Shown in pieces: positions 1,783 through 38,220 of a stretch of DNA of 64,000 nt. The position numbers and the translations under genes were made by a program. The notes under the pieces were generated by a model, which did not search any database, was not told where the DNA came from, and saw only the letters and a program-made list of their open reading frames with translations. Every line of letters starts with the position of its first letter. Within the stretch, counting starts at the first letter, position 1. The stretch comes from Micromonospora sp. NBC_01813. Lineage in GTDB: Bacteria; Actinomycetota; Actinomycetes; Mycobacteriales; Micromonosporaceae. The stretch lies in assembly GCF_035917335.1 (NCBI RefSeq), contig NZ_CP109067.1, positions 7,005,001 to 7,069,000 on the forward strand. The letters are read 5' to 3'.

Positions 1783-1792
<10 letters not shown>

Positions 1793-4925: not shown

Positions 4926-4938
4926 ACCCGGCCGACAG

Positions 4939-6885: not shown

Positions 6886-6940
6886 CGGGCGTCAGCGGGC
6901 TGAACGAGGGCCTGCCACCAATCGAAGATCGACACTGCCG

Positions 6941-6973
6941 GCGGTACGGCGAACGGGCGGTCCGCCGTACCGC
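6941..6973 (-). terminator. Hairpin terminator after catalase
   Basis: An 11-bp perfect inverted repeat (6941-6951, GCGGTACGGCG, with 6963-6973) sits just past the catalase stop codon. Confidence 0.7.
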
Positions 6974-6980
6974 CGGGGGG

Positions 6981-8507: not shown

Positions 8508-8901
8508 GAGGACTCCTCGGGTTGGCTCAGTTTCGTGCGCTATCTGCACCCATACCCGGCCAACGACAATCTCAGCCCTGCGGCTGCTCGGTACCCTGGC
8601 TCGCAGGGATCGCCTTCGATAGAGGGAGGTTGAGTCGTGGGAATGGACGACAGTCAGCGCAGTGACCGGCCTGGCCCGCGCGTCGCTGGCCGTCGCGGCT
8701 CTGTCCGGGCACACCGGGTGGGGAGGGCCAGGTCAGATCAGCCAGCGGTGCCGCTGGACGACGGGGAGCTTGGCCCAGAGCCGACCGAGGCCCCAGGTGT
8801 ATCCGGCGTGACGGTGCCGGAGCCGGCTGCGACCCGCAGGCCGACACGGGTCATCTGCCAGCCGAGACTCCCTGACCCAGGACTGGGCCGTCGCTACGGC
8901 A
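8508..8901. other. Intergenic region between catalase and TPR gene
   Basis: About 390 bp holding the catalase promoter and, on the plus strand, a possible short open frame starting at GTG 8637. That start has a good ribosome-binding site (GGGAGG at 8624-8629) and a TACCCT -10-like box at 8592. I see no RNA gene or repeat in it. Confidence 0.5.
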
Positions 8902-9035
8902 CTACGAAGGCAGGCTGGTCAGCCGCGCTGCAGCCTGCGGCGCGTACTCCGGGTGCCCGGAGTCGACCACCCGGCGGTAGTAGATCCGTGCCTCGCCCAC
9001 GGCACCTCTCAGCAGGAGCGCTCCGGCTAGGTTGA
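8637..9035 (+). CDS. Doubtful small open reading frame
   Basis: A 132-residue frame of low-complexity, Arg/Pro-rich composition resembling no family I know. The only support is the well-placed GGGAGG before the GTG start. Against it, the last 134 bases run antisense into the TPR gene. It could be an unusual regulatory leader, a decayed gene or chance. Low confidence. Confidence 0.22.
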
Positions 9036-9873
9036 TCGCCCCTTCGATCCGGGCCAGCGGGTGATCCGACTCGGCCGCTGCCCGGAACAGCCGCTCGGCC
9101 TCGACAAAATTGCGGGCCTCGACGGCGAGCAGGCCCAGATTGAGCCCGGCAGCGCCGGCCGAGGACGTGTCGCCGGAGGCAAGCGCGATGCCGTACGCGT
9201 GGCGGGCACCGGCCAGGTCGCCCCGCTCCTCGAGGAGAATGCCGAGATTCAACGCGGCCAGACCGTGTGCGGGCCGGCCGGCCGCCATCACCTCCCGCAG
9301 GGACTGCAGGGCGCGATCGGTCCGTCCCTTTGCGTGCTCCTGTGCGGCCAGCGCGATCGACAAGTCATCAGGGTCGGTCACCCGAACCGTGGGAATCCCT
9401 CTGCCGACGGCCTCGGCGAGCACCGCGTCCATGCTGACCTTTCCGGTGGCCTCCGCCAGCCGGGCCGCCACCGCGTCCGCGCCGGCGGTGTCCCCGCGCT
9501 GGCGCAGCATCGTCGTCAGATTGTTCGCCGCGCTGGCGCTGCCCCGGTCGACGGCCCGGCGGTAGGCGTCCTCCGCCTCGTCGACCTGCCCGACCTCTTC
9601 CAGCAGGAACCCGAGCCGGAACGCGCCGGTCGCGCTGCCCCGCTCGTCGGCTCGGATCAGCGCCGCGCGGGCTTCGGCGATTTCGCCGCGCTCGAAGAGC
9701 AGGACACCCAGGCAGGACGCGCCCTCCGCGCTGCCCGCCGCGTCGGCCCGGCGGTAGGCGTCCTCCGCTTCGGCGAGCCTGCCACGTTTCTCCCACCGTT
9801 CTCCGTCGCGCACCAACGCTGCGGCGTCGGAACGCCCGGACCACCAGCCGAACCATCGACGCCAGTCAGCCAT
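8902..9873 (-). CDS. Tetratricopeptide (TPR/Sel1-like) repeat protein
   Basis: A 323-residue soluble protein made of helical repeats of about 36 residues, for example RLAEAEDAYRRADAAGSAEG, then EIAEARAALIRADERGSATG and QVDEAEDAYRRAVDRGSAS. It starts with a Trp-rich segment (MADWRRWFGWWSG) and has no signal peptide. Such repeats bind proteins; no catalytic motif is visible. It lies downstream of the NB-ARC/TPR regulator on the same strand with a 72-bp gap and could be cotranscribed. Function unknown. Confidence 0.75.
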   Translation of the reverse strand: MADWRRWFGWWSGRSDAAALVRDGERWEKRGRLAEAEDAYRRADAAGSAEGASCLGVLLFERGEIAEARAALIRADERGSATGAFRLGFLLEEVGQVDEAEDAYRRAVDRGSASAANNLTTMLRQRGDTAGADAVAARLAEATGKVSMDAVLAEAVGRGIPTVRVTDPDDLSIALAAQEHAKGRTDRALQSLREVMAAGRPAHGLAALNLGILLEERGDLAGARHAYGIALASGDTSSAGAAGLNLGLLAVEARNFVEAERLFRAAAESDHPLARIEGAINLAGALLLRGAVGEARIYYRRVVDSGHPEYAPQAAARLTSLPS

Positions 9874-9945
9874 GCCCGAATCCTAGACAGGGCACGCCAC
9901 ACCGGACGGTCGGACGACGAGCCGGGCCCCGGTCACCCACCCAGG

Positions 9946-23798: not shown

Positions 23799-24532
23799 AC
23801 GAGATTGGGCGCCTCCAGGAGGCCATGCGGGCGACCGAAAAGACCGGCCCGGACCGATTCGACGTCGATCTGATCATGCGTAAGGGCCGTCGACTGCGCC
23901 ACCGGCGGTGGGCGGTCCGCAGCGGCGTGGCTGCCCTGTCGGTGGCGGCCGTCGTCGGCCTGACCATCGGCCTGCTACCGGGCCGCGAGCCGTTCGACCA
24001 GGGTACGCAGCCCGAGCCGGCCGCCACGGCGACGGCACCCACTCCAGATGTCGAGACGCCCCAGCACCCGCCGACGGCGGCACCGGTGCCGCCGATCGGC
24101 GACGTGGTCACGACCGGAATCCGGTACGGCGACGACGAGCGGGTGTTCTACTTCGTCGCGGTCGAACTGCCCGAGGCACCGGAGGTGACGATCGGGTTGG
24201 CCGCCGCCCGGCGTGCTCTCGACGGGAGCCTGACCGTGGACTTCCTGTTGAACGACTTCGCGGGCTCCGACCGCAGTCCTGGCTTCCACCAGATCGGCTA
24301 CGAACCGTCGGACGAACTGCTCCCCGCTGTGTCGATGCCGACGTTCGGCTACTTCGTGGGTCCGGCCACCAGGATCGTCGGCACCATCGGCGACAGCCAG
24401 GTCACTGCCCGGCTGGCACCGTGGAGCGATGACCCGGCCGTGGTGGTCTTCTGGTTCGACCCGCAGTCGTTGACCCCCGGACAGCGGCTGGACGGCATCG
24501 CCGCCTACGACGCCCAGGGCCAGCGGCTGTAA
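23795..24532 (+). CDS. Single-pass membrane protein, possible anti-sigma factor
   Basis: A 245-residue protein with a ~40-residue cytoplasmic N-terminus (NEIGRLQEAMRATEKTGPDR), one membrane helix (about 44-62, SGVAALSVAAVVGLTIGLL) and an extracytoplasmic domain after a Pro/Thr linker. There is no zinc anti-sigma HxxxCxxC motif. Position and the four-base overlap with the sigma gene support an anti-sigma role; this is inference. It starts at TTG 23795. Confidence 0.72.
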   Translation: MNEIGRLQEAMRATEKTGPDRFDVDLIMRKGRRLRHRRWAVRSGVAALSVAAVVGLTIGLLPGREPFDQGTQPEPAATATAPTPDVETPQHPPTAAPVPPIGDVVTTGIRYGDDERVFYFVAVELPEAPEVTIGLAAARRALDGSLTVDFLLNDFAGSDRSPGFHQIGYEPSDELLPAVSMPTFGYFVGPATRIVGTIGDSQVTARLAPWSDDPAVVVFWFDPQSLTPGQRLDGIAAYDAQGQRL

Positions 24533-24567
24533 CCCGACCGCCGGGCCAACCTACGAGAAAAGGCCAG

Positions 24568-25527
24568 TCACTCGGTGGCTCGTCGGGCGCGGGCCCGGCG
24601 GCGGCCCTCGTGCATGGCCTGCACCCGGGGCACCGGAATGGTCCGGCCCTCCTTAACCAGGTCGGCGGGAAGGTGCTGCGGATCCGGCATCAACTCGGCC
24701 CATGGGTCCCGGTCCGCCAGCTGCTCCGGGACGCTGCGGATGGTGAAGTCCGCCGGGGTCACCGACTCCAGTTCTGCCCACGGCACCGGGAAGGAAACCG
24801 GCACTCCGGGTCGCAACCGGGGGCTGTAGACCGACACGACTGTTGCGCCTCCGGCGCGGGTGGGGTCGACGTAGACCTTCCCATCACGGTCCGCGCGGAT
24901 GAACGCGGTGGTCGCCAACGCCGGATCCAGCCGTTCGGCGCGAGCCGCGAGGGCCCGGGTGGCCGCGGCCAACTCCTCGGCGTCCGTGCCGGGCGCGATC
25001 GGGACGAAGACGTGCACCCCTTTGGCTCCGCTGGTCTTCACCGCGCCGGCCAGCCCGGCGTCCGCGAGGGCCTGCCGGACCAGCAGCGCGGCGGCCACTC
25101 CGGCGGCGAAGTCGCCGTCGGACGGCGGGTCGAGGTCGAGCACCAGGTGGGTGGGGTGACCCAGGTCGTCGGCGGTGGCCAGGGTGGGGTGATACTCCAC
25201 CGCCCGCTGGTTGGCAAACCAGAGCAGCGTACGGCGATCCTCGCAGAGCGCGTACGCGATCTCCCGGTGGGACGCCTCGGCCCAGATCGACACCCGGTGC
25301 ACCCAGTCAGGGGTGTGGCGCGGCAGATTCTTCTGCATGAACGGCGGCTGCCCCGGGCGTACCCGGACCACCGACAGCGGACGGCCCCGCAGCGCGGGGA
25401 CGATCCGGTCGGCCACCGCGTCGAGATAATCGACCAGGTCGCGCTTGACCACGCCGGACCCGTCGAACAACCTCTGGTCGAGGTTGGTCAACGGCACGCC
25501 GTCCCGGGTCTGCTCCGCCCCGCTCAC
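24568..25527 (-). CDS. ligD: LigD-type polymerase domain protein (NHEJ)
   Basis: A 319-residue stand-alone polymerase domain of the bacterial non-homologous end-joining ligase LigD, from the archaeo-eukaryotic primase superfamily. The metal-binding aspartates are in LVLDLDPPS (Asp131 and Asp133), with SGAKGVHVFVPI and DPTRAGGATVVSVYS as further family motifs. It should add nucleotides, with a preference for ribonucleotides, at broken ends bound by Ku. No ku or ligase gene is adjacent. I chose the GTG at 25527; the ribosome-binding site (GGATGG) is weak. Confidence 0.88.
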   Translation of the reverse strand: MSGAEQTRDGVPLTNLDQRLFDGSGVVKRDLVDYLDAVADRIVPALRGRPLSVVRVRPGQPPFMQKNLPRHTPDWVHRVSIWAEASHREIAYALCEDRRTLLWFANQRAVEYHPTLATADDLGHPTHLVLDLDPPSDGDFAAGVAAALLVRQALADAGLAGAVKTSGAKGVHVFVPIAPGTDAEELAAATRALAARAERLDPALATTAFIRADRDGKVYVDPTRAGGATVVSVYSPRLRPGVPVSFPVPWAELESVTPADFTIRSVPEQLADRDPWAELMPDPQHLPADLVKEGRTIPVPRVQAMHEGRRRARARRATE

Positions 25528-25674
25528 CCGACCACCATCCCGGCCCAGGGCCGAGCGGTCAACCGGGACACGACGCTGATCCGTCCGCACGATCAGTTGG
25601 AGCGGCCCGCGCCGCTGACTGGGATTGCTCTGGTCAGCGGCATTTTCATGCTGGTCAAGGATTCCTTAGCAAGT

Positions 25675-25698
25675 GTGCCCCCGGAGGGGTTCGAACCT
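25675..25698 (-). other. Degenerate tRNA 3' end, possible attachment-site copy
   Basis: These 24 bases match the last bases of the tRNA-Arg at 36,483 onward at 21 of 24 positions and in the same orientation: the acceptor strand (GCCCCCGG on the plus strand), then TTCGAACCT of the T loop. No D arm or anticodon arm follows, and the T stem would not pair, so it is not a working tRNA. The layout fits the far attachment site of an element integrated at the tRNA-Arg 3' end. Confidence 0.5.
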
Positions 25699-26179
25699 AC
25701 AACTGAGCAGATGCCCTCTAAACAAGAAAAGGCGAACCAGGCGAAAGGCTCGATTAGGTAGTTTCGACGCCTGATGTCGCTGTCTGTGTTTGCAGGTTTG
25801 ACGATGCAGGGCCTGTCACAGATCTACAACTGGTAGTTCGTCGGTGCCGAGCTTATCGGCGTGGGCCCGTTCTCGCGCGGTTCAGTAGGCGTAGGTCCTG
25901 CGTGGTGGTCGGAGAGCCATTGAGGACGTCGAGGATGGCCGCTGCCTGGAGTTTGGCCAGGCGCTTGCCTCGTTCTCCGCCGATGGTGGTGATCTCGAAT
26001 TCAACGGTAGGTGGCTTCAGGTGCATGACGGTGACGTTGCCGTTTGTCAACGCTTGCTCGCATCTCCTGCTGGCGCGTCGGCACCTATCGAGGGACTGGA
26101 TTGGTGTCGGATCTCGCCGGCGGCCAGCGGTCGTGGTCAGCCTAGGCGAGTCCCGTTCGGGTGCCTGTCGGTGCGAGGA
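25699..26179. other. Island left border region
   Basis: About 480 bp of lower GC with little coding character. It holds only a possible short minus-strand frame (25853-26050) and the end of the defence-like operon just beyond. No integrase gene is visible. Confidence 0.5.
25853..26050 (-). CDS. Possible small protein, unknown
   Basis: A 65-residue frame with a TTG start at 26050, or an ATG at 26026 giving 57 residues (MHLKPPTVEFEITTIGGERG then KRLAKLQAAAILDVLN). The helical middle looks protein-like, but no ribosome-binding site stands out and I recognise no family. It could be a third-from-border remnant of an island gene. Confidence 0.33.
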   Translation of the reverse strand: MTNGNVTVMHLKPPTVEFEITTIGGERGKRLAKLQAAAILDVLNGSPTTTQDLRLLNRARTGPRR

Positions 26180-27724
26180 TCAGCCGTCTCGGCTGAGCAC
26201 GGGCGCGAAGATGCCGCGACTGATGGGGTTGCCGGATCTGTTGCCGCGTCGGGGCGAGATCCAACCTTCGAGCAGTTGACGACTGTTCCGATATCCTGCC
26301 GGGCTGTTGGCCGGCTCGATGCGCCACCGGGCTCCCTCTCCGCTGATCCGGTAGCAGCGCGTCCCGCTGTATACCAGTTGATGGTCGCCGTCCTGCTCCC
26401 ACAAGGCAGGGCCGGTGTGGGTGGCGAGCTGAGTCCAGGTCTGACCGTCGCAAGTCACATGTCCGTGGCCCGGAGGGGGCCAAGGTCGCAGCGAGTCGGC
26501 CAGTAGCCGGTCGGCGGTGACGCCGGCCAGCGGGTTCACGGCAAGGTCCAGGTCGGTCTCCGCCATGTAGTGCTCGAAGTAGCGCCAGGCCTCGCCAAGT
26601 GCACCCGTACCGTCGAGGCGCATACCAAGCTCCATGCCGCCGGTCAGGCCCATCGTGGTCATGAAGTTCGCGGAGAAGAGGGAGCCGATACGGCGATCCG
26701 CGAGGCATCCTTTGGCGTGCGTCAAAGTGTCCGCGTAGATCTCCACCCCGGCCGCCTGGAACGCGGCTGCCTCGGCACGTGACGATTCAACGTGGTTTCG
26801 GCCACGCAGCAGCATGCGCACCCGTACGCCACGTTCGATTGCACGGCACACCGGGTCGTAGAGGATCTCGGGTCGCGCGGGCGCCTTCGGCATGTCGAAG
26901 GTCATATTACCGATGCTGAAGGTGCCCAGGATCAGTTCATGCTCGGCCTGGTCGATGGTCCGTCGGATGTCGTCGAGAATGCGATGCTGGTCCTGCCAGG
27001 TCCACAGCAGGCGGCCGGTTTCGGCGACCTCGTTCAGGGCATCGTCGGCCGGGCTCCGGTCGCGGACTGAGTGGTAGGACGGTGCCGGCGGCATGTCCCA
27101 CGGACTTTGCCGCCACAGGCGCCGGAAGGCCCAGGACAGCACGGCAACCTCGTCGACTCCCTCCAGCACCATGCCGTTCTCGCCGACACAAGTGAACGAA
27201 CGCGTGACCAGATTGGCGCTGGAGACCAAGGCACGAGCATCGTCCACGACGGCGAACTTCGCGTGGAGTCCCGGATAGCCGCGGACGTAGATGCCGCTGG
27301 TCGTCAGCCGGGTGAAGTTGCGGAACTCGATCTGGGTGTCGACGTCCAAGGTGTCGGATGCGTCGTTGATGGCCTTGTTCAGCCCGCGATCGTCGAGCGC
27401 CGAGACGACATAGACGCCACCTTGAAGCCGGTCGACCGCCCGTTCGAGGGCCTGCCGGACCTGCTCGTCACCGAGGAACAGGGTGGCGACGAACACTCGC
27501 CGGGTCGCCGAGTCGATCAGGCGCACCAGTTCCTCGCGTATGTTCGACCCGCCACCGTCGTAGGTGAGACAGTGCCGTACACCGTCCTGTGATCCGGTAT
27601 CGCGGGGGATGAAGGGGCTACGGATGGGGGGGCCGTCCTGGCGTCTGAGGAAGAAGGTGCCTTCCACAGTTCGCTTTCCCAGGTCGATGACCTGGCCCAG
27701 GTTGCCTGCCGGAAGATCATTCAC
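26180..27724 (-). CDS. Phospholipase D-fold protein with two HKD motifs
   Basis: A 514-residue cytoplasmic protein. It has two HxKx4D motifs, as in PLD-superfamily nucleases: His154-Lys156-Asp161 in GLHAKFAVVDDARALVSSAN and His336-Lys338-Asp343 in THAKGCLADRRIGSLFSANF. A C-terminal ~110-residue domain has no match I know. Nuclease activity is the likeliest function given the helicase and CARF-HEPN partners. The GTG start at 27724 lies within the end of the upstream gene (8-bp overlap), so it is the last gene of a coupled operon. This protein lacks the short length of DISARM DrmC-type nucleases, so it is not simply that family. Confidence 0.8.
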   Translation of the reverse strand: MNDLPAGNLGQVIDLGKRTVEGTFFLRRQDGPPIRSPFIPRDTGSQDGVRHCLTYDGGGSNIREELVRLIDSATRRVFVATLFLGDEQVRQALERAVDRLQGGVYVVSALDDRGLNKAINDASDTLDVDTQIEFRNFTRLTTSGIYVRGYPGLHAKFAVVDDARALVSSANLVTRSFTCVGENGMVLEGVDEVAVLSWAFRRLWRQSPWDMPPAPSYHSVRDRSPADDALNEVAETGRLLWTWQDQHRILDDIRRTIDQAEHELILGTFSIGNMTFDMPKAPARPEILYDPVCRAIERGVRVRMLLRGRNHVESSRAEAAAFQAAGVEIYADTLTHAKGCLADRRIGSLFSANFMTTMGLTGGMELGMRLDGTGALGEAWRYFEHYMAETDLDLAVNPLAGVTADRLLADSLRPWPPPGHGHVTCDGQTWTQLATHTGPALWEQDGDHQLVYSGTRCYRISGEGARWRIEPANSPAGYRNSRQLLEGWISPRRGNRSGNPISRGIFAPVLSRDG

Positions 27725-28892
27725 CGGGGAAGTCCTCTTCTCGTCGCAGGGCGTAGACGTGCTGGTAGTGCTGTCCGGTCCACAGCGCGCTACGTACATC
27801 GGCCACGGTCAGACCGTCCGTCGGCAGCCCGTACCGTTCCGCACTGGCCGCCGTGATGGCTGCCAGCTCTGCGGAATTGATGTTGGCGACCGATCTGGCC
27901 GAAACTTCGGCCACGGCGTGCTGGAGCGCGAAGATACGTGACGCCAGCTCGTCGCCCGGAACGAACTCGACATCGACGTAGACGACGTCACGTTCACCAT
28001 GGATCAGCAAGCCACCGGGGTGGCCAAGCCGGATCCTGTCCGCAGCGGCGGAAGCGGCTGCCTCCTGGCCCAGCTCGTAGAGCCAACTCCCGCCCGTTCT
28101 CGTCGCCACCACGGGTCCCCACGCGTCGGCGGCCGAAGCCGCCTGCTGGGCAAGGTCCTCCCATCGGCTGGCCAGCTGGTTCGCGTACGGGATCTGCAGG
28201 GTAAGTCGTTTGGAGCGCCCAACTTCGATCTTGAGGTACGCGCGGGACGTGCCGTCGGAGCCGACGCGCACATGTCCGCTGCAGCGGTACTGCTTACACA
28301 CGTCGGTGATTTGCGTCTCGGTGACTACCGGACTGACGATGTCCTGTGGGAGCCCTGGGATTGCCTGTGCCGCGATGCGCTCGGCGATGAGATTGTGCTG
28401 GCTGGTCAGACCGGCGCCTCGCGGAACATCGACGAAGCCGGCCGGTTCCGTACGGTGCAGGCGCGGTGCCCGCCGGCCCTCAGCGGACGAAAGAGCCACG
28501 ATCTCGTCGGTGTCCGCGAGGTATAGCAGCGTGACCGGAGTCTGGCGCAGTCTCACCGCAGCCGCCTGGTCCAGTGCGGGCCGGGCATAGTCCGTCGCGA
28601 CCGCGCCGTACCCGTCGGTCTGGAGAAGGCCGAGGCTTACAAGCCTACTGATAATGCCGTCCACGGCTTCGGCCGGAATGCCGGTGATCTCCTCGATTTC
28701 CGCAGCGTGGACGGGATCCAGGGCTATCGCCGCCTCGAGGAGCAGCCGGTCGATTGCGGTCAGGTCCTCCTCGAACTTGCGCACCATCGGCACATCCGGC
28801 CAAACGTCAAGACCGATGAGCGATTCCTGTACGACGACCGTTGCCTTGGTTTCGGTTTGCCGTGCGGCCTGGAACTGGAAGCGGACCGTCAT
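27717..28892 (-). CDS. Operon protein with winged-helix domain, unknown
   Basis: A 391-residue soluble protein I do not recognise. Residues about 45-100 (AIDRLLLEAAIALDPVHAAE, then IPAEAVDGIISRLVSLGLLQ) look like a winged helix-turn-helix. A small Cys pair occurs in VCKQYRCSGHVRV. The rest is alpha/beta with no catalytic motif seen. Its ATG overlaps the helicase stop (ATGA, 28889-28892), and its end overlaps the PLD gene start. A role as DNA-binding adaptor or specificity subunit for the helicase and nuclease is inference. Confidence 0.7.
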   Translation of the reverse strand: MTVRFQFQAARQTETKATVVVQESLIGLDVWPDVPMVRKFEEDLTAIDRLLLEAAIALDPVHAAEIEEITGIPAEAVDGIISRLVSLGLLQTDGYGAVATDYARPALDQAAAVRLRQTPVTLLYLADTDEIVALSSAEGRRAPRLHRTEPAGFVDVPRGAGLTSQHNLIAERIAAQAIPGLPQDIVSPVVTETQITDVCKQYRCSGHVRVGSDGTSRAYLKIEVGRSKRLTLQIPYANQLASRWEDLAQQAASAADAWGPVVATRTGGSWLYELGQEAAASAAADRIRLGHPGGLLIHGERDVVYVDVEFVPGDELASRIFALQHAVAEVSARSVANINSAELAAITAASAERYGLPTDGLTVADVRSALWTGQHYQHVYALRREEDFPGE

Positions 28893-29632
28893 AGCCGGCG
28901 AACTCGCATGAAGTCGTCGTCCTGGTCGACGAGGCTGAAGAGGTTCTCGTAGAAGATCCGCGCGGGACTGGGCTCTGCGTCGGCGGAGTGGGCGCCGAGC
29001 GCGCTGAGAGTAGGGCCATGACCGACGAATACGAGGGCGCGACGTGCTCGGGTGAAGGCGACGTTGAGGCGGCGGATGTCTTGCAGCCACTGGCCGTACC
29101 CTGGGCCGATTCGCCCGGTGTGTGCCCTGGTGAAGCTGATGATGACCAGATCGCTCTGCTGGCCCTGAATACGGTCGATCACGTCGATGACCTCCCACTG
29201 AAGGTGTGGCAGGTCCAGTCTGCGTAGCCGACGCGACAGTTGTTGTGCCTGAGCCCGGTAGAACGCCAGAACGCTGACAGTGACGGGTTTGGACCCACTT
29301 CGCCCGAGATCTTCGTTGTACAGGCGGCAGATACGTTCCACGAAGTGCTGCTCTCGTTCGTTGACGAAGCCGTGGTCCTGTGGCGTATCACCGGAGTCCC
29401 TAAAGTGGCTGGTGTCGACGAACGTCACCGGTTTCGTCAGCGTCTCGGCGAGCACCAGCGGAGTCAGCCCGATCGCTGCGAGATCAGCGGCGGGCGGCGT
29501 ACGGTATCGCCCTCTATAGACCGGTTGGGCAACGATCCGGGCCAGTGGTTCGATCATGCGCCGCTGCCAGACGAGTTGCTGCCGCAAGCCGGCGGGAACC
29601 CGGGGAGCCACCCGCTGGAACAGGCTCTGCAC
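28889..29632 (-). pseudogene. Upf1-like helicase, C-terminal part cut off by an IS
   Basis: This segment encodes the C-terminal 248 residues of the SF1 helicase and is in frame with the N-terminal part once the IS is removed. It carries the second RecA domain: VSVLAFYRAQAQQLSRRLRR (motif IV region), VIDRIQGQQSDLVIISFTRA (motif V) and RRLNVAFTRARRALVFVGH (motif VI with its arginine). Without motif I it cannot be an active helicase alone. Its stop overlaps the next gene, so the downstream genes might still be translated from a promoter in or near the IS. Confidence 0.85.
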
Positions 29633-30725
29633 TAGTGTCCCGTGTCTGAAGTCTTTTCGCGGTTTGCTTTGGTGAGGATCTGGTCGGCGGTTTTGGTCCA
29701 GGCGAAGGGTTTGCATCGCTGGTTGTAGCCGTCGATGAACGCACGGATCGCGGCGGTCAGGTCGGGCACGGAGGTGAAGGTGCCGCGGCGGATGGCCTGG
29801 CGGGTGATGATCCCGAAGAAGATCTCCACCATGTTCAGCCAGGAACAGCTGGTGGGGGTGAAGTGCATGGTGATGCGGGGGTGGCGGGCCAGCCAGGCTT
29901 TGACGTTCGGGTGGTTGTGGGTGGCGTAGTTGTCGACCACGACGTGCAGTTGCACTCGGGGGTGGGCCTTGGCGACCTGCTTGAGGAAGGCCAGGAACTC
30001 CACGTTGGAGTGCCGGTCGAAGCAGGCGTCGGCGCTGACGCGTCCGGTGGCCACCTCCAGGGCGGCGAACAGGGTGGTGGTGCCGTTGCGGACGTAGTCG
30101 TGGGTCCGGCGCTCCGCCAGTCCGGGGCGGAGCGGCAGGATCGGCGCGGTCCGGTCGAGCGCCTGGACCTGGGACTTCTCGTCGACCGAGACCACCACCG
30201 CGCCGGCCGGCGGGTTCAGGTACAGGCCGACCACGTCCCGGATCCTGGCTTCCAGTTGAGGATCGGTGGAGAACTTGAACGTCTCCGACCGGTGCGGCTG
30301 CAGGCCCCATTTGCGCCAGACACGTGAAACGGTGGCGAAGCTGACCGGGGTTCCTCCCGGCGCATCTGGTCGGCCAGCAGCCGCGCCGACCAGTGCGTCA
30401 CTCCGAGGTCCGCTGGCGGCCGCCCGTCGTCGGAGACGGTACGCACCACGATGGCGACTTCGTCGACCACCGACGGTCGGCCCGAGCGCCCCAGGTCGGC
30501 CAACGCGTCGATGCCGCCGGCGTCGTAGCGGTTACGCCACGCCAGGACCGTCGGGGTCGACACCCCGACCTGACGGCCGATCGCCGCGTTCGGCATACCT
30601 TCAGCGGCCAGTAGAACAATCCTCGCCCGCTGCGCCAGACCCGCCGCTGCCTGTGATGACCGGGTCAGTGCGCGTAGACGAGACCCATCTCCCGGGCGAA
30701 GCGCCAAAGGCGCGGCAACAGACAT
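29632..30725 (-). pseudogene. IS630-family transposase, two frames
   Basis: The N-terminal frame (30216-30725) encodes a helix-turn-helix region (AAIGRQVGVSTPTVLAWRNR) and ends in an out-of-frame tail after LLADQMRREE. The second frame (from about 30366 to 29632) continues the homology and carries the DDE residues: Asp in VSVDEKSQVQA, Asp in VVVDNYATH and Glu in NMVEIFFG. The switch is a -1 step near 30,380. Some IS630 members use programmed frameshifting, but no clear slippery run is seen, so a one-base deletion is equally likely. The stop codon is completed by the TA target duplicate. Confidence 0.85.
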
Positions 30726-30775
30726 GCCTCATTGTCCCGCACCTAAACCACAAAACCACTTACGACACGCGACAC
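29635..30775 (-). mobile_element. IS630-type insertion sequence, 1,141 bp
   Basis: The ends are imperfect inverted repeats, GTGTCCCGTGTCTGAAGT on the left and GTGTCGCGTGTCGTAAGT read inward from the right. The element is flanked by the dinucleotide TA (29633-29634 and 30776-30777), the target duplication expected of IS630/Tc1-mariner elements. It sits inside the helicase gene of the island operon. Deleting the element plus one TA (1,143 bp) leaves the helicase frame open. Confidence 0.93.
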
Positions 30776-30777
30776 TA

Positions 30778-33700
30778 GGTGGCGAAGCATGGCAGTGAGT
30801 ACCTGCCGGTCCGGATCGTTTCGGTTGCCGGATGACTGGACGCGAAGGTACGCCGATTCGAAAGGGTCCCGAAAGCTTGTGGCCCACAAACCGCTGGAAC
30901 TTAGGTCCTCCGCGACGGCCAGCACACTCTCGGCTCGGAACTTGTGGAGCTCCTCGTCTTCGGCCCAGACCTGTGCCAGGTATTGCACGGAGGCTTCGAG
31001 GCTCTCACCGGCGCCGCGGTGGAAGCGATGCAGAGCGGTCAGGGCGTGCAGGAAATGCTCGTCCCGCTGATCGACATGCGGGGGAAGTTGGTGCTCGTCG
31101 CCCACGAGAATCCACCGTCGCGCCCGTGTGGCGCCGATGAGGAACTCGCTCTCGGTCACCCGGCTCGCCTCATCGACGATTAGGGTGTCGTAGTCGGCGT
31201 ACCGGACGACCTGGCTGCCTCGTCCGACGATTCCTTTGGTGGTGGCACACACAAGGTTCGCGGCTCGGACCAGCGACTCGCGGATGTCGGCCAAGAGCAG
31301 GTCATCGGACTGGCCGCTGGTCAACTCGTACCATCGCTGGTGCAGTGCGGGAAGTCGTTGTAGTACGTGTAGGCGACGCTCGAGCTGCTCAATGTCCCGG
31401 CTGTGGTCCGCTGGATCCTCGGACCTCCCGGCAAGGATCCGGCTGATCTTCTCGACTCGTTCGACTGCGGCATCGTAGCGGCTCTGAGTCGCGGTGAAAT
31501 CCTGCTCAGCGGCGGCAAGCGAGCTCTCGATGCGGTCTCTTCTCACCTCCAGCTCCCGCTGGCACCAGGTCTGGTCTTCCAGGGCGGATCGCTGCTCCCG
31601 GCCTGCCGCAACGAGATCCGTCACTGCCTGTGACAGCTGCCCGGCAATCTGAGCGACCGATCCGAGCGCGGCCAGCGTCCCATGGTCCGCGCCTACTGGC
31701 GGCTTCCCGGCGAGGAGAGCCGGAACCGTTCCGGCTAGAAACGCAGCGACTCTCCGCCTCTCGTTCATGTCAGCTACCTCTGTCATGGCAGGCTGAGCGT
31801 CGCCGGCAGCCTCCGCGAGCCGGGTCCATCGCAAGGTGCTCTGCCGCACAGCCGCATCCATCTGCAGTCGAGCGTTGCTGGCACGTTCGCGTGCGGCCAC
31901 GACATCGTTGGTGCAGAGGGCCTCGACAGCGGCCATGTGACTTTCGGCCGTGCGCTGCCAGTCCGTGGCTGAGCGTGACCGGTTCCGCCAGTAGGTGACC
32001 GCTGCCTCTGCCTCGTCCGCTCGGCGGCGGGCGGCAGTGACGCGACCGAGATTCATTGCCGTCAGCATCCGCCCGAGCTGGTTCTGATGGGAGACCGCGT
32101 TGTCCAGGTCCAGCTGCGCCCGCCGCAACTCAGCCAGGGCGTCCTCCAGCCGTGCCATCACAGCGTGGTTATCCAGGCCGGCCCGTGCTAGGTCGTTCCT
32201 CGCCTCTGCCACACTGTGGTTCAGCAGCCCTGTTGCCCGGTCAAGTTCTTTGTTCACGGCGTCGAGAGCGCTCGCGGCGGTCGAGGCCACTCGCATTGCA
32301 GCCTGCCAGCTCCGCGCGAGCGGGGGCAGCGGCTCGAGTATCGGACGAGCCGTCGTGAGCAGGTCACCGTGAGTGCGAACGGCTCGGCTCAGGGCGCTAG
32401 CGACAGCGTCGACGCGCGCTGTCGCCAACTTCGCCGCCTGATTCAGAGTGCCCAACTCCTGATCGGCCCGGGAGCGGCTGAGATTGAGGCGTTCGGCGGC
32501 CGCCGCGAGCGCGACCCGCGTGTGGGCCAGGGCAATCGCCTGACGGCGCTTGTCCGCGATGGCGGAGATCGCTCGCCGAGCATCCTGGATGCGCTCTTCG
32601 ACCTCAATCAGCTCTGCGGCCCACAGCGGGTCGCGGGCACCCTTCGCGGGTCGGGCAACGAGGCCCGTCAGACCGGCGCCGACATTGGGCTCGAGGTAGT
32701 CGCGGACGGACTCGTGCACCCGGTCGTCGTCCCAGGTAATGCGAAGCGGCCGGACGCCGGGCTTGTGCCCGATCCTGCCCAGCACCTCGTCGACAGCGAC
32801 ATGAGTCGGTGCCAGGAGCAGCACCCGCTCGCCCCGTGCGACCAGTTGCCTGACGGTCTCACAGATGACCTCGGTCTTGCCAGTTCCCGGCGGACCCTGC
32901 ACCAGGAACGCGTGCGGGGTCGACACCGCCCCGGCGACAGCGCGCCGCTGCTCGTCGTTCAAGGGCGCGCTGCTGTCACTGTCATCGCAGAAGAACCGCG
33001 TGGGCAACGCGAGCGGTTCCTGGGCAGTGAGGCCATGGGCCTGACACAACAAGCGGGCCAAATCGTCCCAGGAGCCCTCCACCTCGCCATTGAGAAAGCT
33101 CTTGAGGGCAAGAGCATTCTGTCGCATCCCGAATGGTTTGACGAGATTGACGGTCACTTCGGTCCCGCGGTCCGGCAACCAGTTACCGGGTTGCCGGACC
33201 GCGATCCGCCCGGCGCGGATTCGTCGGACGTTGGTGTTCACCGTGACGCCGTTCGAGGCGGTGATCGTCACCCGGCGGCGGTCGAAGTCGGCCAGGTCCG
33301 TGGCGGGCTTGACGTCGAGAACCACCGTGTCCGCTCCGTCGAGGCCCTCCTCGACGGAGAGGACGACGCCCGAAACGGTTTGTTCGGCGACTTCCGGACG
33401 TTGCTCAACGATCTCCAGGAGCCGCTTCAGTCGGGCGTATTCCAGGTGGACCGTGCGTTTGAGCTGTTCGGAAGCGGGCGCCCCGACGCGGCCCTGGTGG
33501 ATCTGGCGCCATTGTTCCAGATGTCTGAGGAGATCTTCCATGTCGAAGGCGAGCTCGCGATAGTTCGGCTCGAAGGAGACGACGGCCGGCACGATGCGGT
33601 CATACCGGCGAGGCATCGAGGACGTCACCTCGATGGCCGTCACCTCGGCCAGCCAGGCACCCGACGACTGACCCTTCCGACGTCGGACTCGGGCCTCGAA

Positions 33701-33919
33701 TCGGGAGCCGCCGAGCCGGTAGGTCCGAGGACCCTGCTGTCCCGACGAAGGGTATCGAGCGATCCAGATTCCTCCGGCCATGTCGTCGACTACCTGATCC
33801 AGCGTGGTGCCATCCGGTAGAGTCAGTCTCTGCTGTGTGGACAGCAGGATTTCCGCGATCCTCATGGGCGGTGGATGGCCAGTGTTCGGTTGATCAGGCT
33901 CGAGTAAGGGCGGTGCCAT
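30778..33919 (-). pseudogene. Upf1-like SF1 helicase with coiled-coil insertion, N-terminal part
   Basis: The first 1,047 codons of a gene that would encode 1,295 residues. Walker A is QGPPGTGKTE at 341-350, preceded by NDEQRRAVAGA; Walker B is DEAS at about 916-919 and motif III is LVGDEHQLPPH. Between motifs I and II lies an unusually long Ala/Arg/Glu-rich stretch (about 420-870), which I read as a long coiled coil. Residues 1-300 include beta-rich segments. Motifs IV-VI are beyond the IS. The ATG at 33919 shares its A with the stop of the CARF gene (TGATG), so the two are coupled. As it stands the frame runs 35 bases into the IS and ends at 30743. Confidence 0.85.
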
Positions 33920-35352
33920 CAAAGCTCGCTGACGAACCGTAGCGTCTCGATACGCTCGGTGATATTTTGGTTTGGTTCGTAGACTTGCCAAAAGCACCGC
34001 ATCAGTGCACCGGCTCGCCCGCTGAGTTGAACACTCTGTTCCATTGACACCGATGCGGTGCCATGGGCGAGAACTGACCGGTTACGGGTGTCAACGACAC
34101 CACGCATGCTGCTGATTGAGGACGGCGTCGTCCAACCAATCCGCTTCAACACCGCGTCGTCCTTGAGGCAGAGTAGGAGCATTGCATCCATCAGCGCGAT
34201 CTTGCGGGGTAGGGAGGGTGTCGGTTCCCCATATACCTCGGTGGTCAATACGGCATACCGGGCCGCTAGGCCGTCCACATCCCCCAGTTTGGTGTAGTCG
34301 GGATCGACTGGGTCGAGCCCGAACTCGCTGGAAAGCCGTTCCTCGAACGCCTTCTCAATGCTGCGGTAGTAGAGAAGCGCGGCGAAGTCATGACGGCCTT
34401 GGGCTCGATAGTGCTCGCCTAGAAGGAAGAAGTTGAGCAGCATCGTCGGTCCGTCCCGGCCTGCGAGCGCCTCCGCGAACTCAAGTTGCTTCGTGATCCT
34501 TTGCGTGATGGTGGCCGCGAGTGCCATCCGTTTCTCGCGCAGATGCTCCCGAACGCGAACGATCAGCGCCGGCAATCCGTCGACATCGAGATTGCACCAG
34601 GCCTCGTACAGAGCGGCGAGGTCACGCAGGAACCGCACCTGGGTCGGCTCGGCGATCGACTCGCTCAGCTTCTCGAACAGTGCATGGGCACCGGAATACA
34701 CGCCGCTGCGGAACATGGCCATCGCGGCGGTTAAGTCCTTATCCCCGAACAGTGCCGTCGGATTCGGCAGTACACACAGCCGTTCGCTGCCGGGAAGAGC
34801 TTGACGAATCTCGGGGTCGAAAGTGCTGTCGATGTAGCACATCGGAAGGTCCAGTTGGGAAGCGGCCAGTGCCGCACCAGCGCTCATCGCCTTCTTCCCG
34901 CCAGTGATGTCGATGATCACGTGCGGCGGCCGCCCAGCGGTCAGCAGGGAGCGGACCTCCTTCAGCACGATGTCATAAATGCTGGTCGGATCGACGGGAT
35001 CGCAGGTCACATGCCGGGCCTCGGAAAACTTGATTTTGCCAGCGAGCTTCTCCCAGATCGCGTCGATCGTCTTCTGGGTGCCCTCCGACGTGATGATCAA
35101 GATCCTCGCCGGCCGGGTCAGCGCGAAGGCGAGCAGCGTCGTCTCCGGGGAGAACCCAGAAAGGCTGATCAGCAGATCGACTGCTGGCCGCTCGACGTCC
35201 GCAGAGTTGGTCCGTGCGACCTCGACGGCTTCGTCGTAGATCTCGGCCAACCGGAAGGCCTGAGCCTGCTCCGCCGACGTGCCCTCGCCGTACTTCTCCT
35301 CGCCACGGAAGATCCGCCGCATGCGGGCGTGTTTCTCGTCCAAGCTTCCCAT
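33919..35352 (-). CDS. CARF-HEPN protein, TIGR02710-like CRISPR-associated sensor
   Basis: A 477-residue protein. Residues about 55-200 form a CARF-type Rossmann domain: DLLISLSGFSPETTLLAFAL, RILIITSE, and the ligand-loop signature DITGGKKAMSAG at 148-159 followed by a YIDS strand. CARF domains bind cyclic oligoadenylates or related signals. The C-terminal half is helical and ends with TRNRSVLAHG (His430), which contains an R-x4-H HEPN ribonuclease motif (Arg425-His430, with Arg423-Asn424 just before). Together this is a Csm6-like or TIGR02710-like layout. No cas10 or other cas gene is nearby. It is the first gene of the four-gene operon and its stop overlaps the helicase start. Codon use is less GC-rich than that of the core genes. 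Confidence 0.82.
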   Translation of the reverse strand: MGSLDEKHARMRRIFRGEEKYGEGTSAEQAQAFRLAEIYDEAVEVARTNSADVERPAVDLLISLSGFSPETTLLAFALTRPARILIITSEGTQKTIDAIWEKLAGKIKFSEARHVTCDPVDPTSIYDIVLKEVRSLLTAGRPPHVIIDITGGKKAMSAGAALAASQLDLPMCYIDSTFDPEIRQALPGSERLCVLPNPTALFGDKDLTAAMAMFRSGVYSGAHALFEKLSESIAEPTQVRFLRDLAALYEAWCNLDVDGLPALIVRVREHLREKRMALAATITQRITKQLEFAEALAGRDGPTMLLNFFLLGEHYRAQGRHDFAALLYYRSIEKAFEERLSSEFGLDPVDPDYTKLGDVDGLAARYAVLTTEVYGEPTPSLPRKIALMDAMLLLCLKDDAVLKRIGWTTPSSISSMRGVVDTRNRSVLAHGTASVSMEQSVQLSGRAGALMRCFWQVYEPNQNITERIETLRFVSEL

Positions 35353-35418
35353 AGGTGAGGAACTCTATCGACGAAGCCGTCGATGGCACAGCCCTGCGCG
35401 CATCACCTCGCTGCCCCG

Positions 35419-35622
35419 TCATGCACCCGAACAGTCTGACCCAGCACGACCGTATGGCGACAGCTGACGCCGCTGTGTGTTGCTGGCCCGAAACCAGCCC
35501 AACTCCGCGAACAGGCACCCGGCAAGAAGCAGGTACACCACGACCCGGGCCGGCAACAGCTGCAGCCGGATCTCGGTACGCCTAGTCATGGCCGGGACGC
35601 CATCGACCATCTCTAACGGCAC
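35419..35622 (-). pseudogene. IS4-family transposase, N-terminal fragment
   Basis: Only the segment TRRTEIRLQLLPARVVVYLL and LFAELGW (about 35,480-35,590) resembles the N-terminal domain of IS4-type transposases of actinobacteria. The catalytic region is missing and the frame then diverges. A dead remnant. Confidence 0.65.
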
Positions 35623-35630
35623 CAGAGGCG

Positions 35631-36172
35631 TCAGATCGTGTGACCGCCCGGGGCGGCGTAGGCGAGGTATACCGCGACCTGCGCGTTCTCCACCCGCCCC
35701 GCCGTGCCGGTGTACTGCCGCTGCACCCCGACGGTGTGTACGCCCATCTTCAGATCACCGGTGTCGTCCAGGATCAGTAGCCCGCCTGGGTCGCCGATTG
35801 CGTCGATGACGTACCCACGCACGTCGTCACGCACCGCGTCGGCGTCCCACACCGCCTCACCCAACGATCGCTGCATCGCGTGCGGTGGGGCGTCCCCTGC
35901 CCGTTCCGCCAACTGCCAGCACGATCGGGTGTCTACATCCGACAACAGCCCGAGCAGGAACGAGCGGGCCTGCCGGCGCGGTTCCACCCGCCCGAACCGG
36001 CCTGCGATCCACACAACTCGGCGTCGAACTCCGTCAGCCAACTTTCGGCGTCTACGCTGTGCCCTGCGGCCGCCGCGCGATCTTCGCTTGTCTTCACAAA
36101 CAGTGCATGATCAACTGGCGGCCGTCCTTTGCCCGCAGACACGCCGACCAGCCCCGACCGAGCTGAACTCAT
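35631..36172 (-). pseudogene. IS701-family transposase, truncated and frameshifted
   Basis: The frame at 35631-36041 matches the N-terminal third of IS701-type DDE transposases: RFGRVEPRRQARSFLLGLLS, then WDADAVRDDVRGYVIDAIGD, LILDDTGDLK (with a first catalytic Asp) and VGVQRQYTGTAGRVENAQVA. The start lies in a different frame (35933-36172, ending WLTEFDAELCG), which shows a frameshift near 36,010. The homology stops abruptly at 35,631 where the IS4 fragment begins. Confidence 0.8.
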
Positions 36173-36483
36173 CGCCAGTCATCTACATGCCGAACCCGGG
36201 CTGCCGTACCAGGGTGCGCGATCATGCCCTTCGCGGCACCACAGTGCAGGCCGGAAGGATGACGTGTCGGTACCGAAAACGACCGCCTTCTTCCCGGATG
36301 AGCACGGCATCCGGATCAACCTCTCATGGCACAATACGGGCGGATCTGATGTCAGCGATTGGGTTGAGCGTGAAGGACGCCCCGGGCGGTTAGCCCAAGG
36401 CGCTCTCGATCGCTTAAACCGCGAAACTGGCGCCTGCGATCAGTGATCGGCCGGTCGCGTTGCGCTTTTGTAGTCCTGTGACG
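36173..36483. other. Island right border region
   Basis: About 310 bp between the IS701 remnant and the tRNA-Arg, with lower GC than the core. It holds a possible 60-residue plus-strand gene (36264-36446) and nothing else that I can identify. Confidence 0.5.
36264..36446 (+). CDS. Possible 60-residue hypothetical protein
   Basis: From the GTG at 36264, preceded by GGAAGGA at suitable spacing, the frame reads VSVPKTTAFFPDEHGIRINL and ends in ALDRLNRETGACDQ. Composition is protein-like and it lies just inside the island by the tRNA. I recognise no family. Confidence 0.4.
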   Translation: MSVPKTTAFFPDEHGIRINLSWHNTGGSDVSDWVEREGRPGRLAQGALDRLNRETGACDQ

Positions 36484-36555
36484 TGCCCCCGGCAGGATTC
36501 GAACCTGCGCCACCGCCTCCGGAGGGCGGTGCTCTATCCCCTGAGCTACGGGGGC
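36484..36555 (-). tRNA. tRNA-Arg (anticodon CCG)
   Basis: Reading the minus strand gives a full cloverleaf: acceptor GCCCCCG paired with CGGGGGC, D arm GCTC/GAGC, anticodon stem CCGCC/GGCGG with loop CTCCGGA (anticodon CCG), T arm GCAGG-TTCGAAT-CCTGC and discriminator A. CCA is not encoded. Its 3' end faces the island, the usual orientation for tRNA-targeted integration, and a partial copy of that 3' end lies at 25,675. Confidence 0.95.
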
Positions 36556-36633
36556 TCAGCGACCCAGGAAGACTAGCAAACGGGTACCCGGGTTGCCGAA
36601 TTGGTATCGCCGTGTCCCGCCGGCAGACCTTGG

Positions 36634-37329
36634 TCAGGCGGCGCGGGCCGGTCGGGCGCAGCTCGGCAGCAGGTGCGTGACGATGCTGCGGGGCAGCCGC
36701 CGGGGGAGTTCCGAGTTCGCCCAGGAGCCGTCGACGACGAGGTGCGCGCCGCGCCGGTCCGGGCCGCAGAGCCGTAGCAGGAACTCGCGCGGCAGCGGCG
36801 GGTCGATCGACGGGGTCAGGATCATGAAGCGGATCTGGCCGCGTACCGAGGCGGCCGACAGCACGTCGGCGGCCGGCGAGGTGCCGTGCAGCCGGGTCCG
36901 CCCCAGCCACCACAGGTCCGTACGGTGGTCGCGGGCGGCCCGCAGCACCTCCGGGTAGGCCCGGTCGACCCACTCGTTGACCGCGTCGACGCAGAGCCCG
37001 CAGGCGCGTTCCGCCGGCCGCCGGGGTGCCAACCCCCAGGCGTCCAGGTAGTGGCCGACGTCGGTCGGGCTCAGCGTCAGCCCGAACCGTCGTTCGATCA
37101 GGATCGCGACGGTACGGCGGCTCCACAGCTCGTCGTCCAGCGCGTGATCCTCCGGCCAGCGGCCGCGCAGCAGGTCGATGAGGTCGAGTTCCTGTTCCGG
37201 TGTCAGCCCGCCAGCGGCACCGGTGGGTGATCCGCGACGGCGGGCCGCCACCGCGCCGTCACCGCCGAGTGTGTGCCGTCGGCACCAGCTCGTGATCGAT
37301 CTCCGAGTATCGCTTAGAAGTGCCCCCAC
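36634..37329 (-). CDS. Transposase-derived winged-helix protein (IS630-like, catalytic residues lost)
   Basis: A 231-residue protein whose N-terminal half matches the HTH/winged-helix region of IS630-type transposases (LTPEQELDLIDLLRGRWPED, then LWSRRTVAILIERRFGLTLS and VGHYLDAWGLAPRRPAERAC). The rest follows the DDE fold, but where active elements have a WGDET-like motif this has WWLGRTRLHG, and only the second Asp (LVVDGSW) is kept. The frame is intact over its whole length, which suggests domestication rather than decay. The GTG at 37329 is the likely start but lacks a clear ribosome-binding site. It lies next to tRNA-Arg, outside the island. Confidence 0.65.
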   Translation of the reverse strand: MGALLSDTRRSITSWCRRHTLGGDGAVAARRRGSPTGAAGGLTPEQELDLIDLLRGRWPEDHALDDELWSRRTVAILIERRFGLTLSPTDVGHYLDAWGLAPRRPAERACGLCVDAVNEWVDRAYPEVLRAARDHRTDLWWLGRTRLHGTSPAADVLSAASVRGQIRFMILTPSIDPPLPREFLLRLCGPDRRGAHLVVDGSWANSELPRRLPRSIVTHLLPSCARPARAA

Positions 37330-37463
37330 GCTAGGACCAACGATGCTGTATCAGGACGGTAGCGATATGTAGCAAGAAAACGTCTGAGACCGTACAGTCC
37401 GGTGAAGTGCCCTAGAACAGGGTATAGATAGACATAAGGTTCGTGGGTCGGCGGCAGAACGAC

Positions 37464-37497
37464 CGTCGCCCGCCCCGGGCGACCGGGACGGGCGACG
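37464..37497 (-). terminator. Hairpin terminator after DUF305 gene
   Basis: CGTCGCCCG (37464-37472) pairs with CGGGCGACG (37489-37497), about 30 bp beyond the DUF305 stop. Confidence 0.65.
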
Positions 37498-37527
37498 TGG
37501 TACGAGCGTCGGACGGTGCGGCGGCGG

Positions 37528-38220
37528 TCAGCCGCCGACCTGGGACTGCAGGGTACGGATCAACTCGATCTCCTTCTGCTGCCCGCTCACCATCGACTCG
37601 GCCAGCCAGTGCACGTTCTCGTCGTCGGACAGCTCGAGCACCCCGTCGGCCATGTGGATGCCGCCCAGGTGATGGGTGAGCATCAACGACAGGTAGAGCC
37701 GGTCGACGTCGACGCCGGACGCCTCGCGCAACTCGGCCCGCTCGGCGTCGGTGGCCATCCCGGGCATCAGCCCGTCGACGATGGCCCATTCGCCGCTGGT
37801 CTGCATCCAGGCCATCCGGGGCTCGGTGCCGGTCGGCTGCAGACTCCACTCCCGCAGCCAGGTCTGCATCACGCCGATCTGGCCCTGCTGGGTCAGCGCG
37901 ATGTCGCTGGCCAGGGTGCGTACCGCCGGGTTCCCGCTGCGCTCCAGGGCGATCATTGACAACTCGACCGCCTGCGCGTGATGGGTCGACATGTCCCGGG
38001 CGAAACCGGCCTCCGGCGAGTCCTCGCCGGGGGTGAACAGACCCGGGGTGAGCAGACCGGCGGCGTACCCGAGGAGCAGACCGATCACGACGGCGGCGGC
38101 CAGCCAGGCGGTGCCGAACCCGGTGCCACGGCTCGGCCGGGCCGTCGGCGGCCCGTCAGCCGTCGGCGGCTCCGTTGGTGGCTGCGGATCCGCCGGCCGG
38201 TCGTGGCCGGTGTCGCTCAT
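37528..38220 (-). CDS. DUF305 membrane-anchored protein
   Basis: A ~230-residue protein: a Pro-rich cytoplasmic N-terminus, one membrane helix (WLAAAVVIGLLLGYAAGLL) and an extracytoplasmic four-helix DUF305 domain with the typical FARDMSTHHAQAVELS and LMLTHHLGGIHMADG motifs. The paired His residues and Met-rich helices suggest metal (copper) binding, which is inference. The ATG at 38220 has GAGGA upstream; a GTG at 38241, overlapping the stop of the DUF3105 gene (GTGA), is an equally plausible coupled start. It forms an operon with DUF3105. Confidence 0.85.
   Translation of the reverse strand: MSDTGHDRPADPQPPTEPPTADGPPTARPSRGTGFGTAWLAAAVVIGLLLGYAAGLLTPGLFTPGEDSPEAGFARDMSTHHAQAVELSMIALERSGNPAVRTLASDIALTQQGQIGVMQTWLREWSLQPTGTEPRMAWMQTSGEWAIVDGLMPGMATDAERAELREASGVDVDRLYLSLMLTHHLGGIHMADGVLELSDDENVHWLAESMVSGQQKEIELIRTLQSQVGG

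Follow-up and report, generated by a model that had tools for sequence, protein, structure and literature searches.

What is understood of Csm6-type CARF-HEPN ribonucleases comes mainly from type III CRISPR, which they serve. According to excerpts of PMC10897365, the Thermus Csm6 needs K137 for the binding of cyclic tetra-adenylate (cA4) and Y161 and N164 for its cleavage; the HEPN site is formed or held by R415, N416, H422 and E332, and linear A4>P is a further activator of the enzyme. CARF nucleases outside CRISPR, TerY-linked ones among them, were already noted in a portion of PMC3710099. Among helicase-nuclease systems, the CoCoNuTs are described in parts of PMC11090510 as having a helicase, CnuH, with a helical insert after Walker A, downstream winged helix-turn-helix (wHTH)-nuclease genes being typical of a large family; the type III-C CnuE consists of a wHTH and two PLD domains, and genes for CARF proteins, most of them RtcR-like, are found near CoCoNuT types II and III-A. 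Here a four-gene operon is described from Micromonospora sp. NBC_01813, lying in a stretch of 64,000 nucleotides (contig NZ_CP109067.1, positions 7,005,001 to 7,069,000; hereafter the window) and encoding a CARF-HEPN protein (gene A), a Upf1-like helicase (gene B), a winged-helix protein (gene C) and a PLD-fold protein (gene D). The four genes form a conserved, co-diverging unit that is transferred horizontally among soil actinobacteria, and we lean towards reading it as a mobile, CRISPR-independent antivirus system with two arms.

All four genes lie on the minus strand and their successive ends overlap: the stop of A and the ATG of B have TGATG in common at 33919, the stop of B and the ATG of C have ATGA in common at 28889-28892, and the stop of C overlaps the GTG start of D (27724) by 8 bp (27717-27724). 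These coordinates and overlaps agree with those of a first-pass annotation made from the sequence alone. Its picture of one unbroken translational unit holds for the overlaps and fails for the helicase, which is split here by an IS630-family insertion sequence.

33919-35352, minus strand: gene A, Csm6-like CARF-HEPN ribonuclease, 477 residues, uninterrupted (profiles, AlphaFold, Foldseek)
30773-33919, minus strand: gene B part 1, Upf1-like superfamily 1 (SF1) helicase, first RecA half and long insert (AAA_11, MkoA PDLC03920, comparison with locus L035)
29636-30772, minus strand: IS630-family insertion interrupting gene B (transpos_IS630; borders from the comparison with L035)
28889-29635, minus strand: gene B part 2, second RecA half (AAA_12, MkoA)
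27717-28892, minus strand: gene C, winged-helix protein, 391 residues, uninterrupted (ATG 28892, alignment, AlphaFold)
26180-27724, minus strand: gene D, two-HKD PLD-fold protein, 514 residues from GTG 27724, uninterrupted (PLDc_2 in two stretches)

The uninterrupted genes A, C and D equal in length those of the nearest relative, L035. The domains that had been proposed (CARF-HEPN, SF1 helicase, winged helix and two-HKD PLD) were all borne out by profiles or by AlphaFold models, and the initial observation is thus partly confirmed: it is real, with two corrections, the interrupted helicase and the HEPN motif.

Gene A matches the PADLOC model CARF1--CARF_HEPN, one of that collection's candidate defence models, at E 1.1e-234. 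It also matches the Csm6 HEPN family PF09670 (E 6.6e-13, 49.1 bits against a cut-off of 27) and NCBIfam TIGR02710 (91.4 bits against a curated cut-off of 83.9), which places it among the Csm6-type CARF-HEPN proteins. Its AlphaFold model, built from 31 alignment rows (predicted local distance difference test, pLDDT, 90.4; predicted TM-score, pTM, 0.64), retrieved Thermus thermophilus Csm6 as all eight best Foldseek matches (E 1.3e-19 to 9.7e-17) with the cA4 complex ranking first, and the likeness covers the whole length of the fold, with TM-scores of 0.59-0.71 across the eight Thermus Csm6 chains. Residues K154, Y173, R423, N424, H430 and E333 align with K137, Y161, R415, N416, H422 and E332 of the Thermus enzyme and are invariant across the 31 rows. 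As the HEPN motif, R423-N424-x5-H430 (R-x6-H), unchanged in 31/31 aligned proteins, replaces the R-x4-H site suggested earlier, as R425, the residue needed for that spacing, varies among them. From these alignments, gene A likely binds a cA4-type ligand; cleavage of the ligand ring by its CARF domain is possible but less sure.

In the helicase, Pfam AAA_11 matches part 1 (E 3.2e-38) and AAA_12 matches part 2 (E 1.8e-27), and MkoA is the best PADLOC match of both pieces (PDLC03920, E 8.7e-49 and 8.4e-32, respectively). Among proteins of solved structure, its profile comes closest to SMUBP-2, UPF1 and DNA2, and an NCBIfam model named 'PLuB' is matched weakly. Helicases without interruption, of 1063-1338 residues, occur in 17 relatives; across 16 such helicases, the key residues of what we take to be motifs I to VI do not vary. 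The long insert proposed between motifs I and II is present: Walker A and Walker B lie 573 residues apart in the uninterrupted relative L068 (Nucisporomicrobium flavum), and 348-587 residues apart in the 12 of 16 relatives where an exact-string search located both motifs.

The IS630-family element (~29636-30772) parts the first RecA half from the second. The open frame of helicase part 1 extends into it as far as 30743, and two transposase frames lie within the insertion (30216-30725 and 29632-30234), the latter matching transpos_IS630 at E 1.3e-41. As the genome holds eight full-length copies of the element at ~100% identity, this one included, besides one short weak match, the insertion was probably recent; and since it splits the helicase, the window's copy of the operon is probably inactive, its helicase-nuclease arm being broken. 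The helicase of Actinoplanes sp. TFC3 (L036, on the same contig as L069) is interrupted as well, at another site and by another gene, transposase-like by eye; this independent insertion may be due to chance, since B offers the longest target of the four, or to a cost that the helicase imposes.

No family matches gene C above the Pfam cut-offs, and its MarR/TrmB-like winged helix, weak by sequence, is visible in the AlphaFold model (pLDDT 88.8). A Foldseek search with this model returned nothing at E 0.001, the best matches (MotA, CggR and MarR, at E 0.011 and above) covering the winged helix only. The PADLOC model MkoB matches the window's gene C at E 4.7e-5 and gene D at E 2.8e-9. In gene D, both HKD sites (H154, K156, D161 and H336, K338, D343) are invariant in 20 rows; the best match to DrmC models has E 4.8e-16 in PADLOC, and NF038319 DrmC gives 80.6 bits, under its cut-off of 133.

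The first-pass annotation proposed a defence operon whose genes should recur together in other genomes, and they do so. A survey of 354 genomes of the window's family, with a threshold of E 1e-20 for gene A, found this gene in 28, the window's own included, and in none of six other genomes of the same genus. With 20 kb (less at contig ends) around gene A examined in the other 27, the order A-B-C-D on one strand was found in 18 of the 28, the window's genome included and the helicase being interrupted in two. A gene C profile matches 27/354 genomes at E 1e-6. Strong matches (E <1e-70) occur in 19 genomes, all of them among the 28 with gene A, for which the hypergeometric chance is 5e-25, kinship not being corrected for. 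The other eight matches (E 4e-8 to 8e-7, frames of 183-204 residues, none among the 28 genomes) are probably unrelated winged helices and were set aside. In genome G638 (L051), tblastn failed to detect gene C, which the profile located on the same contig (as L085); scoring was limited to the best few candidates per genome, and remote copies of A or C may have escaped notice.

An even phylum sample of 396 genomes gave six with gene A at E 1e-20, namely the window's own and five distant homologues. A scan of 84,980 species genomes with the gene A alignment resulted in 35 loci; all four genes stand in order in 18 of them, from four actinobacterial families (Micromonosporaceae, Streptosporangiaceae, Thermomonosporaceae and Pseudonocardiaceae) and many in genomes of the family survey, L077 ends inside the helicase at a contig end, and L095 is convergent. 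No match was found in a plasmid collection queried with A, C and the L068 helicase, nor in a phage collection queried with A only. Over 16 loci the genes diverged jointly, with r of 0.84-0.86 for A against the others and 0.89-0.93 among B, C and D, and for each of the six pairs 0/2000 permutations were as high (no species-tree correction).

Comparison of the window with L035, from another genus, revealed two aligned stretches (26150-29635 and 30773-35406) between which the IS630-family element is absent in L035. Similarity ends at both block ends (19.9 kb compared), save for 94 bp at 88% around the 3' end of a tRNA-Arg gene, and the transferred segment comprises the four genes with ~54 bases upstream and ~30 downstream. 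The block and the truncated transposase next to it are as follows.

26150-35406, minus strand: block common to the window and L035 (other genus), 8120 aligned bases, 96.6-97.4% DNA identity (DNA comparison)
35631-36041, minus strand: IS701-like transposase, truncated, upstream of the operon (NF033540; E 5.8e-42, 144.3 bits against a cut-off of 150, 125/363 model positions)

A tRNA-Arg(CCG) gene (36483-36555) lies upstream of the operon, and a 24-bp piece resembling a tRNA 3' end, a single exact copy in the genome, lies downstream (25675-25698); in L035 the 94-bp piece resembling the tRNA-Arg 3' region lies 1.7 kb downstream of the operon. These tRNA-like pieces are possibly the remnant of a tRNA-targeting element. 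A tRNA-bounded island is not claimed, as the tRNA-Arg gene and the downstream piece differ and no integrase was seen between them by eye. An Rfam scan of 24000-38000 found only the tRNA.

The flanks of 10 of the 18 four-gene loci of the family are rich in defence genes, 91 genes there matching 53 PADLOC families at E 1e-20 or better; the count is of families, several of which may fit one gene. The 25 of the 53 that were listed include BrxHI, BrxD, PglZ, JetA, JetB, JetC, type I methyltransferases, DpdJ, SngC and ShosA, with one gene each, and mad3, matched by three genes. In the control, 99 of the 153 genes called in 10 of 20 fetched regions ~90-100 kb away in the same genomes, one PADLOC family (mad3) was matched, by two genes. 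A sign of the enrichment in defence islands that the first-pass annotation asked for was thus observed, with models of BREX, Wadjet and type I restriction-modification represented. Taken together, co-divergence, block transfer and PADLOC-rich flanks support a conserved unit whose surroundings are rich in defence genes; the set as a whole is spanned by no single PADLOC system.

In the two-armed mechanism that we propose, the products of B, C and D would work jointly, as a single machine, on the RNA or single-stranded DNA of an invader, which the helicase would thread and the PLD sites would cut, in the manner of CnuH-CnuE in CoCoNuT or MkoA-MkoB in Mokosh. The CARF-HEPN protein would form the second arm, inactive as long as its CARF dimer carries no tetra-adenylate-like ligand; once the ligand is bound, the HEPN site would cut RNA and growth would stop. 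By analogy with the Thermus Csm6, the CARF domain may cleave its own ligand and thereby serve as an off-switch. Phage protection, complex formation, the identity of the ligand and its rise on infection are what we infer.

Several observations weigh against this proposal. Nine of the 28 A genes stand without C (two behind a CoCoNuT-like set, two behind HmaB/HmaC, three with the PLD gene only and two beside remnants), and at one further family locus A is convergent to B-C-D. Given these nine, gene A is exchangeable and may serve alone, and its looser divergence fit agrees with this exchangeability. A candidate dedicated cyclase is not apparent either, since no neighbour cluster outside A-D recurs in more than 7 of 47 loci, most clusters being unannotated. 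N164 of the Thermus Csm6, which is needed for ring cleavage, is not conserved in the gene A family, the usual residue there being S or G, and varying residues seem to replace T59 of motif I (matched by eye). The link of gene C to MkoB or CnuE is weak: gene C of L086 or L083 has no match to MkoB at E 0.001, and when C was aligned by hhalign with single MkoB and CnuE-like sequences, the probabilities stayed <1%, which is not significant. Finally, by eye and without a PADLOC scan, the window's own flanks hold a LigD-like gene, the IS701 remnant and the tRNA-Arg gene, and no recognised defence gene.

The loci at which gene A stands without C show some further features. In three Glycomyces genomes a PLD gene follows A immediately, with no helicase between them, one contig ending just after. 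At these CARF-HEPN and PLD loci a gene of 366-375 residues overlaps or abuts the CARF-HEPN start (L091:8883-9983, also L090 and L094); it has no match in Pfam or PADLOC. At L073:615-11446 and L074:80-11443, the CARF-HEPN gene stands directly behind HmaB, HmaC (with a Swt1-like HEPN) and two genes matching HEC-05 and HEC-07, an arrangement that is possibly another CARF-equipped defence set. L057:6966-9011 and L055:6983-14349 have a common site, at which L057 retains an uninterrupted CARF-HEPN gene and only remnants of the helicase and PLD genes; gene A alone therefore seems to be tolerated.

As to the source of the signal, gene A could be a type III effector that has been orphaned next to a helicase-nuclease system with which it has nothing to do, and could answer to a Cas10 or CBASS cyclase encoded elsewhere in the genome. 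Distant homologues of A (25-30% identity) do occur in CRISPR loci, with Cas10 (L062, L067), Cas1 (L064, L065, L097, L098) or Cas6 (L066), L063 and L099 being labelled CRISPR from common neighbour clusters only, and A accompanies other defence sets too. In a tree of 48 rows of A, a branch with support 100/100 separates 38 rows from the nine CRISPR-labelled ones, and this 38-row clade contains every four-gene, PLD-only, Hma-linked and CoCoNuT-linked gene and zero CRISPR-labelled rows; it includes L089 (Gemmataceae) and L096 (Myxococcota), which carry no context label and sit on long branches of unsure placement. Against the orphan effector, Cas10 (PF22335) exceeds the cut-off in 0 of the 28 genomes with A, two matches being sub-threshold, so that A does not qualify as a type III ancillary effector. 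SMODS cyclases (PF18144) occur in 2/28 and mCpol in 1/28, none of the three is found in the window's genome, and strong C matches never occur without A. Nor do the operon proteins contain a CD-NTase domain as CBASS would, the genome-wide search having been made with SMODS only and other CD-NTase profiles not searched. This explanation, already disfavoured, is quite unlikely. A cyclase would be unnecessary if the CARF domain senses RNA ends with a 2',3'-cyclic phosphate, so that the HEPN arm is switched on whenever tRNA or mRNA is cleaved in a burst; parts of two reports offer precedents, the activation of the Thermus Csm6 by linear A4>P (PMC10897365) and the proposal of such ligands for RtcR-like CARFs beside CoCoNuTs (PMC11090510). 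However, RtcR-type CARFs are a different kind of protein, and sensing of RNA ends is rated as somewhat unlikely. It is rather improbable that the operon makes its own CARF ligand without a known cyclase, from RNA fed by the helicase to the PLD protein; here the covalent phosphohistidine step of the PLD protein would yield short oligoadenylates, cyclic or ended by a 2',3'-cyclic phosphate, which would then activate the CARF-HEPN protein. A very unlikely reading is that of an RNA quality-control or stress operon with no role against phages. UPF1 does act in RNA surveillance (stated in an excerpt of PMC11090510), whereas the operon is patchy (28/354 genomes), horizontally moved, degraded in some genomes and set in defence-rich flanks.

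Two further alternatives concern the identity of B-C-D rather than the signal. The operon might be a split variant of Mokosh type I, in which B is MkoA, C and D are a divided MkoB and the CARF-HEPN protein is an accessory. In both, wHTH and PLD come after a Upf1-like helicase; of the PADLOC models, the uninterrupted L068 helicase matches MkoA PDLC03920 best (282 bits), and MkoB matches the window's C and D. Nevertheless, the L068 match begins only at position 325 of the MkoA profile, and no Pkinase domain was found in the L068 helicase or in the window's helicase piece, in contrast to an adjacent MkoA-MkoB pair of another genome (L137), where MkoA reaches 783 bits over the whole profile and carries a kinase (Pkinase E 5.7e-26) and where MkoB has one PLD stretch as against the two HKD sites of gene D. 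With the wHTH and PLD on separate genes, each a partial MkoB match, and a CARF-HEPN gene in front, the set was rejected as Mokosh type I, and the split-variant reading is unlikely. Mokosh type II was rejected too, since helicase and PLD are separate, with no single MkoC protein, and MkoC is only the fourth or fifth best helicase match. The operon might also be a CoCoNuT without McrB and McrC, that is, a free-standing CnuH-CnuE with a PLD effector (as in type III-C) and a CARF sensor. As in CoCoNuT types II and III, so far as parts of PMC11090510 describe them, a helicase with a long insert after Walker A (large and helical in CnuH) is followed by a wHTH and a nuclease, the III-C CnuE having a wHTH with two PLD domains. 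Moreover, in L088 (Catellatospora; 695-11431) a CARF-HEPN gene of the operon's branch follows an MkoA-like helicase, a wHTH-like protein, an AAA_5 ATPase and a DUF2357-like protein, and in L046:11509-19900 one stands directly behind the same CoCoNuT-like set, the AAA_5 and DUF2357-like clusters of L088 recurring only there; 'CoCoNuT-like' is tentative for L088 because its wHTH and DUF2357 matches are below the Pfam cut-offs. Yet McrB and McrC define the CoCoNuTs, and neither an McrB-like GTPase (CnuB) nor McrC (CnuC) is among the four genes, for which membership of types II and III was rejected; C and D are separate genes, and the CARF protein is Csm6-like, not RtcR-like. The two CoCoNuT-linked CARF-HEPN genes fall inside the four-gene clade, so the sharing may concern gene A only. 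A reduced CoCoNuT is accordingly an alternative of small but appreciable likelihood.

On the preferred reading of a CRISPR-independent system with two arms, the operon connects nucleotide-type signalling, via a Csm6-like ribonuclease, with helicase systems that resemble Mokosh and CoCoNuT. The CARF-HEPN branch is, in the 28 genomes tested, without Cas10 and mostly tied to the helicase-nuclease operon, with sisters behind CoCoNuT-like and Hma sets, and raises a testable question, namely what makes its signal. If the ligand were self-made, it would be a third signal source beside Cas10 and the CD-NTase-type cyclases, nucleic-acid degradation itself serving as the alarm, and the Glycomyces CARF-HEPN and PLD pairs would represent the minimal form of such a system.

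In comparison with known systems, the parallel with DISARM that the first-pass annotation drew from a helicase-PLD pair is limited to gene D, which matches DrmC models through the PLD fold and nothing beyond it; DrmA and DrmB do not appear among the operon proteins' PADLOC matches as listed (the top 25 of 65 in the case of protein A), and the set is thus not DISARM. The annotation's view that the set matches no known system stands insofar as no single PADLOC system covers it, and has to be qualified in that MkoA/MkoB and CnuH/CnuE are close relatives of B-C-D. No description of the four-gene set was found in listings and passages of the open-access literature. Different from the Thermus Csm6, which gene A resembles throughout its fold, the gene A family sits in an operon with a helicase, a wHTH and a PLD protein and does not keep Asn164. 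The parts are of known kinds, while their stable four-gene combination and Cas10-free setting appear new. The operon is best described as a variant of the helicase-wHTH-nuclease defence theme, with a putative role in defence, to which a CRISPR-independent, Csm6-like arm with a presumed nucleotide-type ligand has been added.

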